A DNA stretch of 64,000 bases from Flavobacteriales bacterium. Lineage in GTDB: Bacteria > Bacteroidota > Bacteroidia > UBA10329. The position numbers and the translations under genes were made by a program. The stretch spans positions 1-64,000 of the forward strand of contig JAIPBJ010000009.1 of the NCBI GenBank assembly GCA_021739625.1, given 5' to 3'. Positions 23,537-30,495 of the stretch are shown one piece after another (within the stretch, counting starts at the first letter, position 1; each line of letters opens with the position of its first letter). Below the pieces are notes generated by a model. That model was not told the origin of the DNA. It saw only the letters and a program-made list of their open reading frames with translations, and ran no database searches.

Positions 23537-24313
23537 TTGAACCCGATCGCCCTCAATTACAAGGACTATGGCACCGGTTGCCCGATGGTGATCCTCCACG
23601 GGCTGTTCGGTTCGTTGGACAATTGGTTCTCGCTCGCCAAGGCATTTGCCGATGACCACCATGTCTATCTGGTCGATCAGCGTAACCACGGCCAATCGCC
23701 CCACACCGACTCGCATACGTATAGCGAAATGGCGGACGACCTCTTCCATTTCTTTCAGGAACATGGATTGAAGGATGCCGTGCTCATCGGCCATTCGATG
23801 GGCGGAAAGGTGGCCATGCGGTTCGCAGCAGAGCACCCCGAACTGTTGTCGAAATTGATCGTGGTGGATATGGGCGTGAAGGCATATCCCGTTCACCACG
23901 ACCTCATCCTCCGCTCCATGCAGGCCATCGACCTCCCGAATGTCTCATCGCGCAAGCAGGCCGAAGAAGAGCTTGCCCGCTACATCAGCGAGCAGGACGT
24001 GGTGCAGTTCCTCACCAAGAACATCTATCGGAAGAAGAACGAGGACAGCTCTGCCGAATATGCGTGGCGTTTCAACCTCGACCGCATAGCCGAGGACATT
24101 GAGGAGATGGGAATGCCCATTTTCAACGGAAGTGCTGTCCCAACGCTGTTCATCAGCGGTTCGCAGTCGCGTTATGTGGTGCCCGAAGACGAAAAAGGCA
24201 TCCGGGAGCTGTTCCCGAATGCCGCTTTCATCTATTTGCCCACAGGGCATTGGGTGCATGCCGAAGACCCCGCAGGACTGGTCGGGGCGGTGAAGGTGTT
24301 TATTGCAGGATGA
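23537..24313 (+). CDS. Alpha/beta hydrolase (YbfF-like esterase)
   Basis: 258 aa. The fold is marked by VILHGLFGSLDNW (oxyanion region), the nucleophile elbow GHSMGG with Ser87, and a C-terminal PTGHWVHAEDP with the catalytic His. The text is close to YbfF-type esterases; the substrate is unknown. The start codon is TTG, and MNPIALNYKDYG fits the family start, with no usable ATG nearby. The stop overlaps the convergent endonuclease gene by 14 bp. Confidence 0.9.
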   Translation: MNPIALNYKDYGTGCPMVILHGLFGSLDNWFSLAKAFADDHHVYLVDQRNHGQSPHTDSHTYSEMADDLFHFFQEHGLKDAVLIGHSMGGKVAMRFAAEHPELLSKLIVVDMGVKAYPVHHDLILRSMQAIDLPNVSSRKQAEEELARYISEQDVVQFLTKNIYRKKNEDSSAEYAWRFNLDRIAEDIEEMGMPIFNGSAVPTLFISGSQSRYVVPEDEKGIRELFPNAAFIYLPTGHWVHAEDPAGLVGAVKVFIAG

Positions 24314-26540
24314 CCTTCTGCGAAAGTGTGCCGTTCGCACCATTCACCTGCAGCAGATAAACCCCTTTCGCGGTTCCGTTGAGGTCAAGCTGATGCTGTG
24401 ATGCGCCTGCCGGTGCATTGATAGCATGGGAATACACGCTGCGGCCTGAGATGTCGAACAGGTGTACATTCAGTACATCCGACTGACGCATGTCCAATGT
24501 CATGTTCAGCAGACCTTCAGTAGGATTAGGGTAGATGCCCACAGTGCCGAAAGCCACTTCCTCAATGCTGTTGGGCGTGGTGAGACATGGAATCTCGGTC
24601 GGTTCCACCAGCGTCATGTCGCTGAAGTCGATGTAGCACACCCAGTTCACGCTGTCCACGAACGGGTTGCGGTTGCCCTGCACGCTCTCCACATAATCGT
24701 TGCGGGCGATCTCGTAGTTGCTCGGTGGGTCCTGCCAATGCCACTGCTTCAGCACATCCTGATCCTGACCGTACTGAACGAGGAAGTCAATCGGGTTCGG
24801 AAGCTCCCAACTATCTCCGGTGCCATTCCATTTGGCAGCCATGTACATTATGGCGCGTGCGGCATCGCCCTTGTGGCTGTCGCGTGGTTCATAGACGAGG
24901 TTGCCGTTGGCATCGGTGCCATACTTCGCACCGAGGAACGAGCTGGTCTGGTTCACAACCACCCCAAGCGGACGATTGCTGCGCACAGCATTAGCACTGT
25001 TCTGATGGGCGGGGAAGAGGTTGTGCAGGTCGCTGTACTCCATGCCTTCCTCATCGGGCCATGTGGGCATCCAGCTGTGCGGCCAAGTGTGCTCACGGCT
25101 GATGACATCATAGAAGAACGCACCGGGATAGAGATGCGCGTAGCCCGAATAGACACAGTTCACCACCCGCTGTCCGTCCGTGGTATCGCGCGCAGCGAAG
25201 TTGTCGATCATCACTGGCGCATAATTGCTGTAGTAGGTCTGGCTGTATGGGCTGTTGAGGCGGCTCTGCAGCGTACCGAGGAAGTTGGCGGTCGTGGCAT
25301 CGATGCCCTGATAATAGTTGCCCATCATGTTGTCGGGCGTCTGCGTAGTACCGATCAGCGGGCTGTCCGTCCTGTAATTCTCGTAGCCGCTCGGCCCGTT
25401 GAAGGCATAGACGTAGAAGTTGTACTCCGTATTGGCCACCACATTCGTAGGGCGGAAGCTGCCGGCAGGACCCACGTGCACCACCTGTGTGATGGCATCG
25501 ATGTAATCGCCCTTCACGTAGGTCTGTCCGTCTGTGGGCGGGGTCAGGAAGGCCGCGTTGATGCCGCGCGTCACCAGATACTTCTCCGCAACTGGGCTAC
25601 CAGCGCTGAAACTCACATCATAGCCGTAGGTGGTCAGGTCGCTGATGGAAAGGTTGATGGCGGATGCGGTCGGTTCGGTGGCGAGATTCCCGCCAATTCC
25701 CAATAGGTTGATGACGTAGGTGCTCTCGTCCCCGTTCGCATCATTGTTCTCAATGGTCAGCGTTGCATAACGAGATCCGTTGGCCCCGGCACTGAAATTC
25801 ACATCAAAACTCTCTGTGCCGTTGGCGGCCACGTCAAATGGGGTTGACACGCCCGAAATGGAGAAATCGGCCGCATTCGTTCCGGTGATGCTCATGCTGG
25901 TCACATTCAATGCGCTGCCACCTGAAAGATTGAAATTGGTGATGGTGAAAGTGGTCGATGGCAAGTTGCCGATCACATAAGTGTTGCCAGTGAATACCGC
26001 ATTTCCGGCAACTGAGACATTGATCTCCTGAGCGTTTGTGGCTACCTGCGGAGCCAAAGAGATCTCATCGAGCGCGATATTCCGTCCGCTCTGTTTATTG
26101 GTGAAGAAGAAGCGGATATAACGGCTCGATGCCTGCGGGACATCCGTGTACTCAACGAAATTATCGGAGGCGGCATTGAGGTCGGCCGTGCTCAATACGC
26201 GCATTGCGGTCCAAGTATTGCCATTGGTCGATTCCTGAATGCTGAATGAGTCTCCGCTCGCAGTGCCTTGTCCTTTGACGTTGTAGGTGACCGAGCCGCA
26301 CACGTCACCGAAGTTCACCAGCACATACTCACCAGTTGCGTCCAAGCGGCAGGCGGCATTCACAAGGCCGTTGGTGTAGCGCGTGTTGCCCACCACCACA
26401 TCAAGGAGTTCTGACCAACCCGTTGGCAACGGGTCATCGAAATTGAAAGAGGTGGGGAGGGGCGCCTGCGCGGCAGCATTGAGCCAAAGCAGCAGGGCAA
26501 TAGGGAAAGAGAGGAGCTTTTTCAAAAGGAATCGGTTCAA
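24300..26540 (-). CDS. Secreted endonuclease I with T9SS sorting domain
   Basis: 746 aa starting at TTG, since the signal peptide MNRFLLKKLLSFPIALLLWLNAAAQ begins there and no ATG is available. Order: signal peptide; discoidin-like carbohydrate/surface domain (~26-165); choice-of-anchor-D-like beta-sandwich (~170-280); FN3-like module (~290-400); endonuclease I (EndA/NucM) domain (~405-650) with REHTWPHSWMP, YSDLHNLFPAHQNSANAVRSN, YEPRDSHKGDAAR and NDYVESVQGNRNPFVD; T9SS type A tail (IGIYPNPTEGLLN to the C-terminus). It would cut extracellular DNA or RNA at the cell surface. Third gene of an operon with a TonB receptor. Confidence 0.93.
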   Translation of the reverse strand: MNRFLLKKLLSFPIALLLWLNAAAQAPLPTSFNFDDPLPTGWSELLDVVVGNTRYTNGLVNAACRLDATGEYVLVNFGDVCGSVTYNVKGQGTASGDSFSIQESTNGNTWTAMRVLSTADLNAASDNFVEYTDVPQASSRYIRFFFTNKQSGRNIALDEISLAPQVATNAQEINVSVAGNAVFTGNTYVIGNLPSTTFTITNFNLSGGSALNVTSMSITGTNAADFSISGVSTPFDVAANGTESFDVNFSAGANGSRYATLTIENNDANGDESTYVINLLGIGGNLATEPTASAINLSISDLTTYGYDVSFSAGSPVAEKYLVTRGINAAFLTPPTDGQTYVKGDYIDAITQVVHVGPAGSFRPTNVVANTEYNFYVYAFNGPSGYENYRTDSPLIGTTQTPDNMMGNYYQGIDATTANFLGTLQSRLNSPYSQTYYSNYAPVMIDNFAARDTTDGQRVVNCVYSGYAHLYPGAFFYDVISREHTWPHSWMPTWPDEEGMEYSDLHNLFPAHQNSANAVRSNRPLGVVVNQTSSFLGAKYGTDANGNLVYEPRDSHKGDAARAIMYMAAKWNGTGDSWELPNPIDFLVQYGQDQDVLKQWHWQDPPSNYEIARNDYVESVQGNRNPFVDSVNWVCYIDFSDMTLVEPTEIPCLTTPNSIEEVAFGTVGIYPNPTEGLLNMTLDMRQSDVLNVHLFDISGRSVYSHAINAPAGASQHQLDLNGTAKGVYLLQVNGANGTLSQKVILQ

Positions 26541-26576
26541 GGTTTAATGTTCAAGTACTGTATTCTGATCTAAAGT

Positions 26577-29330
26577 CTAAAACTTCACTGCCACTGAAGC
26601 CGTCCATCTGCGCCCCATGCCTACGAAAACCGAAGCTCCTGTGGCATCAAAGGTCTGCGAACCGGAGGCGTTGTTGTCGGCATCAGAAATGTAGAAAGCG
26701 TCAAGTACATTGAGCACACTTGCGCTCAGCGTGATGTCGGCTTTTTTCAGGTTAATAGTATAACCAGCATGAATGTCGAAGAGGTAGTACGCGGGCATTT
26801 GCCACGATTGCCTCCGCCTATTGTCCCCTTGCAGTGTGGTCGCATCAAAGTTGGCATAATTCCAATCGAAATACGTGAACTGCCCTTTGACATATCCATT
26901 CTTCAAGGGATAGAACTTCAATGCTCCCGCAACTTGGAGCTGTGCAGCATCGCCCACTTTTACACCCGTGGCATCAAAGTCTATTGAATCTATTGGCATA
27001 TCACTCTGTTCGGCATAGAAATATGCAGTGGTGGCTCCTTGCCAGGTCCAATCGCCTATGGAGACAAGCCCTTCTACATCGAAGAAATATGGAGTCTTGT
27101 ACACCGCGTCCAGCTCAATACCTTGGTGAACAGCTCCCAGATCGGGGATTGCCACCGCAACCAATGTGCCTCCAATGAGGACGGAACGGCTACGCACCGG
27201 GCGGTTCTCCCATGTCGTGCGATAGAGGTTGAGGTTGGCTGCCCAACGTGGATACTTCACCGAATAGCCCAACTCCAGTCCCCAAACGAATTCATTGCCA
27301 ACGCCCTGAACCAACGAGAACGTGCTGCCCACATAGACATCATTGATGGTTGGTGGACGAAAGAACACACCCCCATTGAAGAACACGTTCATATGGTCGT
27401 TGATATTGTAGTTTACACCCGCTTTTGCAGTGCCGCCCCAATAACTTACCCAATCCATAGAGGCAATCTCGGCCTCTTCCGATTCGTGCGTGTAATTCTG
27501 TCCGTTATAGTTGATGGTATCATTGATTCCCAACGCTAGGCGCATCGTGGTGTCAGGCAGAAAAAGGTCGCGCTTGCGCATCCGGTCAGAGCGGATGTAG
27601 GCATTATACCCTCCAGATACACTCAGGAATCCTGAAAACTTCTTGGCTTTATATTCTAACTGGCCGAATACTCCAGCAGTGTACACCGATGTGTTGGTAC
27701 GGAACCCCGCCACATCTCCTTCACGCTTCACGTTGTCGTCCGGGTTAAAGAGTTCGAAAGGCTGTGCCGTTGAATTGGACACAACATAGTCACCTCCTAA
27801 TAGGTCGTAAGGGGTACTGTACTTTTCTACCCAGAAGACCCTTGCGTCCACCCCAACCGACATTTCCCATTTGGGGCTGATGGTGTAGTTCACGGTTGAA
27901 AGCAGGCCATACCAATAGTGATTGTTCATATTGGCCTGCACAAAATTCTTGGACTTATACTGGGATGTGTCATCTACTGCGAGGAGATCATAGGGCGGAA
28001 CGAACACAGTACCATTAACGTTCTCATTATAGATGGCTCCCATGTCCAATTGGCCCCTATTGTCCAGTTCAGATGTGTTGCCCCTTAGGGCTGTTCCGCC
28101 ACCCCGCCCCAACGAACCATAAACTATGTTGGAAACCGCCACCTTATCCTTTGCCCAGAAATGCTTCAGGTTGAAGACAGGCTTGTGATAGAAATTCTGG
28201 TTGGTGTTAAGGGTCTCTAACGATGCGTTCGGGTTGTTTCTACTGCGTCTCAAAACGCCCCAATCTGCATTGTAGCGCGGGCCATATCCGCCATATAAAT
28301 TCGAGGTTACCGCGTTAGAATTGAAATCCACGCCAAGTTCGGCTGCATACTCTCGGTCATATATATGAATCTGCTCTTTCTGTTTGCGTTCACCACGATC
28401 TTGTGGTGCGCCCATAGCTCCAACGCTCAGGGTATGGTTGCCCAGTTGCTTCTGTAGCTTGATGAAGTAGAAGAAACGGCTGGCATAGGTCTGATCTACC
28501 CATCCGTCCTGGCGGTCGTAGGCAAATGCCGCTGTGACGCCCCATCCGTCTTTGAGCTTGCCAGAGTTATAGCCGATACTGGTGCGCACCAACCCATTGT
28601 TGCCCACCATGAGCTGTATCTCGGTAGAGCGTTTGGAGGTGATGCCCGTGGTGAGGATGTTCATACTACCACCCACCGCAGGGATGGAAAGCTTGCTGGC
28701 CCCCAGCCCGCGCTGCACCTGCACCCGTTGCGTAACGCCATCTAGCCCGAACCAGTTGCTCCAATACACCCAGCCGTTCTCCATATCGTTCATCGGCACA
28801 CCATCGATCTGCACCGAGATGTTGCGCTGCGAGAAACCGCGGATCGTGACCCGTGCATCACCTGCGCCACCGCCCTGATTGGTGGCATAGACGCCCGGGG
28901 TGGAGTTGAGCAGCATGGGAAGGTCCTGTCCGCCCAGTTCCTGCTTGATCTTTACCGGGTCGATGTTGGTGAAGGCCACAGGAGTCTCGCGACCTACCGC
29001 CATATCGGCCACCACCTGCACCTCGTTCAAAGTGAAAGTTTTCAGAGCGAAATGCAGTTCCAATTGGCCGCCTCTCAGCGAAACGGGCTTCGTCTGCGTC
29101 TCATAGCCGATATAGGAGATGGTCAGCGTGTAATCTCCATTGGCGACATCGAGGGAGTAACGCCCATCAAGATCGGTCACCACGCCCAGACCCTCGGCCA
29201 CAAGTACGTTGGCCGCAATGAGCGGTTCGCCCGATGTGGCGTCCTTCACCGTTCCATAGAGACGCGTCTTCTGCGCACTGGCCGTGAACGACAGCGCCAA
29301 CAGAAAGGGCAGCAGCCTTTGTATCATCAT
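26577..29330 (-). CDS. TonB-dependent receptor with carboxypeptidase-regulatory-like domain
   Basis: 917 aa, outer-membrane import. Signal peptide (MMIQRLLPFLLALSFTASAQ), then a carboxypeptidase-D regulatory-like beta-sandwich (YGTVKDATSGEPLIAANVLV to about residue 105), the plug (LPMLLNSTPGVYATNQGG, VTIRGFSQRNISVQIDGVPMND, to ~230) and a 22-strand-type barrel ending in an aromatic residue (SVAVKF). There is no SusD homologue next to it, so it is not a standard SusCD pair. The gaps are 8 bp from the lamin-tail gene upstream and 36 bp to the endonuclease gene downstream. Uptake of nuclease products, or of the associated metal or phosphate, is a fair inference. Confidence 0.93.
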   Translation of the reverse strand: MMIQRLLPFLLALSFTASAQKTRLYGTVKDATSGEPLIAANVLVAEGLGVVTDLDGRYSLDVANGDYTLTISYIGYETQTKPVSLRGGQLELHFALKTFTLNEVQVVADMAVGRETPVAFTNIDPVKIKQELGGQDLPMLLNSTPGVYATNQGGGAGDARVTIRGFSQRNISVQIDGVPMNDMENGWVYWSNWFGLDGVTQRVQVQRGLGASKLSIPAVGGSMNILTTGITSKRSTEIQLMVGNNGLVRTSIGYNSGKLKDGWGVTAAFAYDRQDGWVDQTYASRFFYFIKLQKQLGNHTLSVGAMGAPQDRGERKQKEQIHIYDREYAAELGVDFNSNAVTSNLYGGYGPRYNADWGVLRRSRNNPNASLETLNTNQNFYHKPVFNLKHFWAKDKVAVSNIVYGSLGRGGGTALRGNTSELDNRGQLDMGAIYNENVNGTVFVPPYDLLAVDDTSQYKSKNFVQANMNNHYWYGLLSTVNYTISPKWEMSVGVDARVFWVEKYSTPYDLLGGDYVVSNSTAQPFELFNPDDNVKREGDVAGFRTNTSVYTAGVFGQLEYKAKKFSGFLSVSGGYNAYIRSDRMRKRDLFLPDTTMRLALGINDTINYNGQNYTHESEEAEIASMDWVSYWGGTAKAGVNYNINDHMNVFFNGGVFFRPPTINDVYVGSTFSLVQGVGNEFVWGLELGYSVKYPRWAANLNLYRTTWENRPVRSRSVLIGGTLVAVAIPDLGAVHQGIELDAVYKTPYFFDVEGLVSIGDWTWQGATTAYFYAEQSDMPIDSIDFDATGVKVGDAAQLQVAGALKFYPLKNGYVKGQFTYFDWNYANFDATTLQGDNRRRQSWQMPAYYLFDIHAGYTINLKKADITLSASVLNVLDAFYISDADNNASGSQTFDATGASVFVGMGRRWTASVAVKF

Positions 29331-29338
29331 GGAAGGGT

Positions 29339-30268
29339 TCAGTTGCCCTTGCCGATCATCACCCTGCGGGAGGCCACGGTGCCATCGGCCATCAGCAGAC
29401 GCACCACATAGATGCCGTCTTGCAGCGTACTGAGGTCGAGACGGTTCGTACGGATGCCCTGTGCCATCTTCACTTCCTCTGCCTGACGTCCGATGATGTC
29501 ATACACCTCAATGGCAGCAATGTCCTTGTTGGCAGAAATCATCAGCACCTTGTCGGCAGACGGGTTGGGGAACACATTCATTTTCGCAGGCTCCTGATTG
29601 CGCACGCTGAGTGCAGAACAAGCACAGTCATGCCAACCGAGGTTGGTGAATGAATCCTCTGGCAAACTGTCCCACTCCACCTCCGGCAGGAACGCATCCA
29701 GACCGTCTGTGTCGCCTTTCAACACGGTTGATTTACGGATCAGGGTCTTGTCCACAGTCCACCATGTGCCGTTGCCATCGCTCCAAGCAGTTCCGGGATC
29801 CTCACCGATGCGACCAACAACATCAATCAGATCGCTCGTTCCTTTGATCAACGGCACGGCATCATCACCATTGAAATAGAAAGGCGAGTTGGACTGGACG
29901 TAAACGGGATTCACGAACACATCACCGACAGCAAGCAAAGCGTCATCCACGGGAGCCTCGAAGCCTGTTCCGTTCGGGTCGCGTTTGTCAACAACGATCA
30001 CATAGGTGCCATAAGGGGCAATTGTGCCTGTCAGCATTCCTGTTTCCTCGTTCAGAAGCATGGGGGTGCCGGCTCCGTCACGAAACCGTCCCACATTGTA
30101 TCCGGCCATATCAATGGGTGCATTGGTCGGATTGTAGAGTTCAAGCGCACGGTTGTTGCCGCTGCCTACAACATATTCGGAGATGAACAGTTCGGAGCAG
30201 TCCTGTGTCTGGGCCTGTGAATTGACACAAAAGGCGGGTATGGCGAGGGCAAGTAGCAGTTTTCTCAT
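29339..30268 (-). CDS. Secreted lamin-tail-domain protein with T9SS tail
   Basis: 309 aa. The signal peptide MRKLLLALAIPAFCVNSQAQ is followed by a lamin-tail-like Ig domain (~22-160: LFISEYVVGSGNNRALELYNPTN, MAGYNVGRF, FYFNGDDAVPLI, IDVVGRIGEDPGTAW) and a T9SS type A tail (MNVFPNPSADKVLMIS to IYVVRLLMADGTVASRRVMIG). Lamin-tail domains in bacteria are often linked to secreted nucleases; that fits the endonuclease I two genes downstream. It is the first gene of the operon, with an exact TACTTTTG box ~26 bp upstream of the start. Confidence 0.9.
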   Translation of the reverse strand: MRKLLLALAIPAFCVNSQAQTQDCSELFISEYVVGSGNNRALELYNPTNAPIDMAGYNVGRFRDGAGTPMLLNEETGMLTGTIAPYGTYVIVVDKRDPNGTGFEAPVDDALLAVGDVFVNPVYVQSNSPFYFNGDDAVPLIKGTSDLIDVVGRIGEDPGTAWSDGNGTWWTVDKTLIRKSTVLKGDTDGLDAFLPEVEWDSLPEDSFTNLGWHDCACSALSVRNQEPAKMNVFPNPSADKVLMISANKDIAAIEVYDIIGRQAEEVKMAQGIRTNRLDLSTLQDGIYVVRLLMADGTVASRRVMIGKGN

Positions 30269-30293
30269 TTTGAGGAGGGAAGGTTAGACGGGG

Positions 30294-30301
30294 CAAAAGT
30301 A
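30294..30301 (-). promoter_or_regulatory. -7 box TACTTTTG for the nuclease/TonB operon
   Basis: Exact TAnnTTTG match 25 bp before the lamin-tail gene start; it would drive all three genes. Confidence 0.6.
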
Positions 30302-30392
30302 GCCTAATGCCCAGCATGGCAAGTGACGGCAAGTTTCCAAGGCATGCTTTATTAACAATTCCTTGAAGCATGCAGCGAATCAAAAGGAAGAT

Positions 30393-30410: not shown

Positions 30411-30495
30411 GCCCAGGTGGCGGAACTGGTAGACGCGCACGTTTCAGGTGCGTGTGCCGCAAGGCGTGGGGGTTCGACTCCCTTCCTGGGCACCA
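30411..30495 (+). tRNA. tRNA-Leu (anticodon CAG)
   Basis: The acceptor stem gcccagg/cctgggc closes with discriminator A and an encoded CCA. The anticodon arm cacgt-ttCAGgt-gcgtg gives CAG and a normal 7-nt loop. The extra arm is long (tgccgcaaggcg), as in class II leucine tRNAs. The T-arm is ggggg-ttcgact-ccctt with two G-U pairs. The preceding TACCTTTG box and following terminator make it a single-gene transcript. Confidence 0.96.

Follow-up and report, generated by a model that had tools for sequence, protein, structure and literature searches.

Bacteroidota are prominent degraders of DNA in sediments (PMC8289736), and no paper describing a receptor for DNA-degradation products in this phylum was found in a literature search. 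In Riemerella anatipestifer, a TonB-dependent receptor (TBDR) and a DUF5689 protein, encoded by RA0C_RS04915 and RA0C_RS04920, are essential for natural transformation, and in F. columnare an extra DUF5017 gene lies between the TBDR and DUF5689 genes (PMC8459023). Two nucleases of F. johnsoniae, EndA1 and EndA2 (Fjoh_4721 and Fjoh_4723), are induced by phosphate depletion (PMC8115612, Table 1). V. cholerae feeds on DNA at low phosphate by means of Dns, an Endonuclease I, and Xds, which bears a lamin tail domain (LTD), and takes nucleotides through the outer membrane via OmpK; Xds needs its LTD neither for nuclease activity nor for its location (PMC6746945).

The locus compared with these systems lies in the genome of a Flavobacteriales bacterium, in the window, which is the whole stretch of 64,000 nucleotides that was analysed. 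Three genes and their domains were assigned as follows:

29339..30268, minus strand: LTD protein, 309 aa, a standalone lamin-tail-domain protein and T9SS type A cargo, first gene (Pfam)
29810..30208, minus strand: lamin tail domain, residues 21-153 (Pfam LTD)
29360..29575, minus strand: T9SS type A sorting tail of the LTD protein, residues 232-303 (Por_Secre_tail)
26577..29330, minus strand: TonB-dependent receptor P0002, 917 aa, clade A, with a CarboxypepD_reg N-terminal domain (Pfam, tree)
24300..26540, minus strand: secreted Endonuclease I, 746 aa, with a TTG start, a choice-of-anchor D region and a T9SS tail (Pfam)
24651..25106, minus strand: Endonuclease_1 catalytic domain, residues 479-630, E483/H484 and RSN motif kept (Pfam, alignment)
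24309..24536, minus strand: T9SS type A sorting tail of the nuclease, residues 669-744 (Pfam)

The gene order is LTD-T9SS, TBDR, Endonuclease I-T9SS, with intergenic gaps of 8 and 36 bp in which a pattern scan found no terminator-like sites. The initial annotation had described a three-gene minus-strand set in which two T9SS-exported proteins flank a TonB receptor that has no SusD partner. All three genes are present where it placed them, and Por_Secre_tail was found on both the LTD protein and the nuclease. These two proteins are the neighbours of the receptor; no SusD-like lipoprotein lies next to it, and the locus does not class as SusCD/PusCD. A comparison of gene order in relatives, which had been proposed as a check, found the order LTD-TBDR-nuclease kept in dozens of genomes, which argues that the arrangement is not due to chance. 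The three genes are thus confirmed as a set and form a putative operon.

The LTD protein matched the Pfam families LTD (2.1e-12) and Por_Secre_tail (3.6e-10), and the nuclease matched Endonuclease_1 (2.1e-29) and Por_Secre_tail (7e-14). With TIGR04183 the two proteins scored 40.8 and 48.6 bits, respectively, against a cut-off of 23, which classes both as T9SS type A cargo. The nuclease is likewise classed as an Endonuclease I by its PF04231 score of 103.4 bits (cut-off 25). Its catalytic domain can be aligned, in the C-terminal portion, with Vibrio Endonuclease I enzymes of solved structure, and E483, H484 and R520 are invariant in 13 relatives, the RSN motif being R520-N522. No other Endonuclease_1 gene was found in the genome.

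The structural model of the LTD protein (pLDDT 85.6) has the folds of human lamin Ig domains and T9SS CTDs as its PDB matches, and the search returned nothing beyond lamin, other Ig-like and T9SS tail folds. Net charge was examined for any hint that the protein binds DNA. The LTD family, of which 31 members were aligned, is acidic (median pI 4.5), which points away from a protein that would bind DNA by bulk charge. Together with the dispensable LTD of Xds, this acidity advises caution over assuming that the LTD binds DNA. The same LTD subfamily is joined to SprB repeats in other T9SS proteins (L180:7022-9031, L184:5780-7426, L185:5293-6804, L190:5689-7386), some of them in genomes that also have the LTD-TBDR-nuclease set.

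In Pfam, receptor P0002 carries CarbopepD_reg_2, Plug and TonB_dep_Rec_b-barrel domains, the latter two above cut-off, and is classed as a TBDR by them. Its model (pLDDT 84.6) shows the classical TBDT fold and matches PqqU, Fiu, FhuA and FecA; because this is the fold of ordinary siderophore-type TBDTs, it is uninformative on the substrate. A receptor tree was built from 72 receptors, namely LTD-partnered, DUF5689-partnered and related receptors together with 13 other TBDRs of the same genome. The LTD-partnered receptors form clade A (support 99) and the DUF5689-partnered receptors clade C (support 100), with a paraphyletic set B nearer to A than to C. Clades A and C are separate, yet both lie inside one larger clade that excludes all 13 tested TBDRs of the genome (support 100). 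Clustering of P0002 with siderophore or vitamin receptors, which the initial annotation had named as evidence against its reading, was looked for among the receptors of its own genome; P0002 fell outside all 13, which leaves the reading unrefuted by this comparison. Next to the sister-group receptors of set B lie genes for Endonuclease I (in L137 and L140), a type I phosphodiesterase/nucleotide pyrophosphatase (L106:12612-13895 and L152:9860-11197, one of them in Rhodothermia) and a DUF5017 protein (L153).

Loci in relatives were collected from whole-genome searches and a scan of GTDB contigs, their ORFs were scored with purpose-built HMMs, and duplicates were removed. An LTD protein is encoded directly upstream of 73 receptors. 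Seven of these loci end at a contig edge downstream, leaving 66 readable, and in 63 of the 66 a nuclease gene lies within three genes; none was detected beside the LTD-TBDR pair in the other three (L046, L049, L082). The nucleases belong to different types, namely Endonuclease I with a C-terminal (28) or N-terminal (12) catalytic domain or with an OB-like DUF5689 domain (3), and OB(DUF5689)-PLD proteins (20), and Pfam confirmed representatives of each. Placed on the receptor tree, nuclease type switched at least four times, and PLD was placed three times. The LTD partner of the receptor, on the other hand, is kept across 26 family-level groups. The LTD protein and the receptor, not the nuclease, are the constant part of the cassette. 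The case for nucleic acid as the substrate draws most strongly on the swapping of unrelated phosphodiester-cleaving enzymes beside them.

Several further features of these loci were recorded. In three of them (L173:4667-6934, L040:4163-6583, L047:10409-12670) the nuclease has a DUF5689/OB-like N-terminus in place of the usual one, a domain swap within the gene. A small lipoprotein-like gene stands just after the receptor, and before the nuclease where one is present, in L043:10662-11111, L044, L046:10382-10816 and L080; the one in L043 has a weak lipocalin-like match. Two small genes between receptor and nuclease (L040:6623-7554) resemble, by eye, a nucleotidyltransferase toxin-antitoxin pair. 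Five MAG records entitled Chryseobacterium gleum (L054, L058, L067, L099, L101) have loci that group with the genus of the window or with other uncultured Flavobacteriales, and their titles are apparently wrong.

From gene content, export signals, catalytic residues, conservation, nuclease swaps and receptor kinship we infer the substrate, the direction of transport, the role of the LTD and the purpose. The operon would most likely, with a probability of roughly 60%, be a system at the cell surface that cleaves extracellular DNA, probably RNA as well, and imports the pieces for nutrition. Cleavage of nucleic acid, on the surface or close to it, would fall to Endonuclease I after its export by the T9SS. 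Exported in the same way, the LTD protein would be the constant surface partner of the receptor and most likely holds the substrate or the nuclease at the receptor mouth, a role that SusD takes in other systems. Oligonucleotides or strands would then be carried by the TonB-driven receptor into the periplasm, where periplasmic phosphatases, together with inner-membrane transporters, would finish processing. The most likely use is the supply of nucleotides, phosphate and nitrogen.

Among described feeding systems, EndA1 and EndA2 of F. johnsoniae are likewise secreted, combine Endonuclease I and LTD domains and are induced by phosphate starvation, but both domains lie in one protein and they are listed as orphans without a receptor (PMC8115612). 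Proteins matching them in domain content, Endonuclease I-fn3-LTD-T9SS fusions, were found in Flavobacterium-like genomes (L183). In V. cholerae, an Endonuclease I and an LTD-bearing nuclease, induced at low phosphate, also free nucleotides that cross the outer membrane; there, however, OmpK rather than a TonB receptor is used and the LTD is fused to the nuclease Xds. The SusCD/PusCD loci (PMC8115612) share TonB-driven import, a surface partner and a degrading enzyme, whereas here there is no SusD, the receptor fold is nearest to classical TBDTs and the enzyme is a nuclease. Literature searches found no paper linking a lamin tail domain with a TBDR and none describing an LTD-TBDR-nuclease cassette. 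This is a new cassette type within TonB-driven uptake, kin to the Riemerella transformation pair and not a member of it.

The initial annotation had proposed extracellular nucleic-acid use with phosphate or nucleotide supply as its purpose. Use of extracellular nucleic acid by the operon, read from its genes, is well supported, the nuclease being swapped and the LTD-TBDR pair constant, while the phosphate or nucleotide purpose is plausible by analogy. In its favour are the phosphate-induced Endonuclease I-LTD fusions of F. johnsoniae (PMC8115612) and Dns/Xds of V. cholerae (PMC6746945). Against it stand the kinship of the receptor with a transformation gene (PMC8459023) and an upstream element that is operon-specific rather than regulon-wide. 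This element and the other candidate signals are:

30294..30301, minus strand: -7 box TACTTTTG, 25 nt before the LTD start codon (sequence match, kept in relatives)
30354..30364, minus strand: conserved element AAGGAATTGTT, starting 63 nt upstream of the -7 box start (same-genus loci)
24197..24223, minus strand: candidate terminator hairpin, 3' of the operon (pattern match only)

The exact -7 box of the initial annotation is present and is kept at the same place in relatives, with TACNTTTG shortly before the LTD start codon in same-genus loci. There are 23 copies of TANNTTTG in the 64 kb window, so the motif alone proves little. A sigma-70 pattern scan gave nothing above chance. In seven same-genus loci AAGGAATYGTT precedes the -7 box by 61 or 63 nt. 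The two motifs in combination have a single occurrence in the genome, at this operon; a search for the combined pattern in nine genomes of the genus found it at the operon in seven of them and gave one additional match in G008 and one in a reversed control. Judged by these matches, AAGGAATYGTT is a dedicated signal, private to the operon in the genus. It does not look like part of a multi-gene Pho regulon, although a degenerate Pho box could be missed. The terminator pattern was found five times in the region against 6.1 expected by chance. Just upstream of the operon, a divergent tRNA-Leu(cag) occupies 30411-30495 of the window, and a similar tRNA-like sequence lies upstream in L035 and L058.

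By architecture, the nearest characterised kin of P0002 is the DUF5689-partnered receptor of Riemerella transformation. Type C loci were likened to that pair by architecture, from its published description. They consist of a CarboxypepD_reg TBDR and an adjacent DUF5689 protein, with an intervening DUF5017 gene in L160; in all 16 type C loci fetched for the tree, the TBDR is adjacent to the DUF5689 gene or one small gene away. Such loci are widespread (L160-L176, e.g. L160:7642-12404). The LTD cassette shares with the pair the receptor superfamily with CarboxypepD_reg and an adjacent gene for a surface partner, and the DUF5689/OB domain recurs in its swapped nucleases. It differs in that its LTD-T9SS partner is encoded upstream, the DUF5689 partner being downstream, in that the set includes a nuclease gene and in that the receptors form a separate clade. 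P0002 was also considered as a direct ortholog of the Riemerella receptor, and this was rejected: with the P0002-family HMM, DUF5689-adjacent receptors scored 128-269 bits against roughly 800-1370 for LTD-partnered ones, and P0002 does not fall inside the DUF5689-partnered clade. PF18942 (DUF5689) has no match in the genome, and the neighbour of the receptor is the LTD protein.

The two cassettes are mutually exclusive. In a survey of 386 genomes of the class, a cassette-type LTD protein together with a P0002-type receptor was present in 87, although in G159, G167 and G250 the two are not side by side but distant or on separate contigs. A strong DUF5689 match, counted at E below 1e-30, was present in 96. 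No genome had both, where an overlap of 21.6 would be expected. Both cassette types are represented in five families, yet never in a single genome; the within-family probability of 3e-6 is indicative, as it treats genomes as independent though they are not. One reading of the exclusion is that A and C are able to replace one another; the other is that the lineages carrying them have different lifestyles.

The alternative that survives best is that the LTD-TBDR pair imports DNA through the outer membrane for natural transformation in place of the DUF5689-TBDR pair, with the nuclease acting as an entry nuclease or trimming DNA. It draws on the exclusion, including that inside families, on the receptor superfamily common to P0002 and the essential Riemerella pair (PMC8459023) and on the OB/DUF5689 domains of the swapped nucleases. 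P0002 is, moreover, the only TBDR of its genome with a clear match to the DUF5689-receptor family (239 bits against the C-type HMM, where the second-best scores 36), and the genome has ComEC and DprA, with no secretin found. However, A and C are separate clades, and group B, closer to A, coexists with C in Flavobacterium-like genomes, so kinship alone carries no function. Nor can ComEC and HHH_3 separate feeding from transformation, since nearly every genome of the class has them (362 and 364 of 371, respectively). A nonspecific endonuclease at the surface should destroy transforming DNA. In Vibrio, Dns lowers natural transformation, so an Endonuclease I in this operon suits a feeding role better than one in gene uptake. 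Transformation as the purpose is considered unlikely. As a separate observation, dprA and another TonB receptor gene of the genome (G000:C71:7815-11159) are ~1.3 kb apart.

Clearance of biofilms or traps, or predation, would make the nuclease the main point of the operon, the receptor importing something else that is released. Vibrio Endonuclease I homologues do act on biofilm DNA (PMC6746945), but here the receptor and LTD are constant while the nuclease varies, and nothing ties the receptor to another ligand, which makes this reading distinctly improbable. An iron, siderophore or vitamin receptor with chance neighbours is barely credible. In its favour are the ordinary fold of P0002 and weak NCBIfam matches to haem, B12 and siderophore receptors, all far below cut-off; the conserved LTD partner and gene order contradict it, and the separation of P0002 from the 13 other TBDRs of the genome that were tested speaks against it.

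Beyond the preferred reading of the operon as a nutritional system, we tentatively raise the possibility, itself rather doubtful, that LTD-TBDR-nuclease and DUF5689-TBDR are two interchangeable TonB-driven DNA importers of Bacteroidota, one per lineage, both moving strands or fragments without a type IV pilus or secretin. For the passage of nucleic acid through the outer membrane of Bacteroidota, where Riemerella transformation needs a TBDR, the cassette links DNA feeding and DNA uptake via one receptor family, and its constant receptor, constant partner and interchangeable nucleases provide a defined gene set for deletion and assay.
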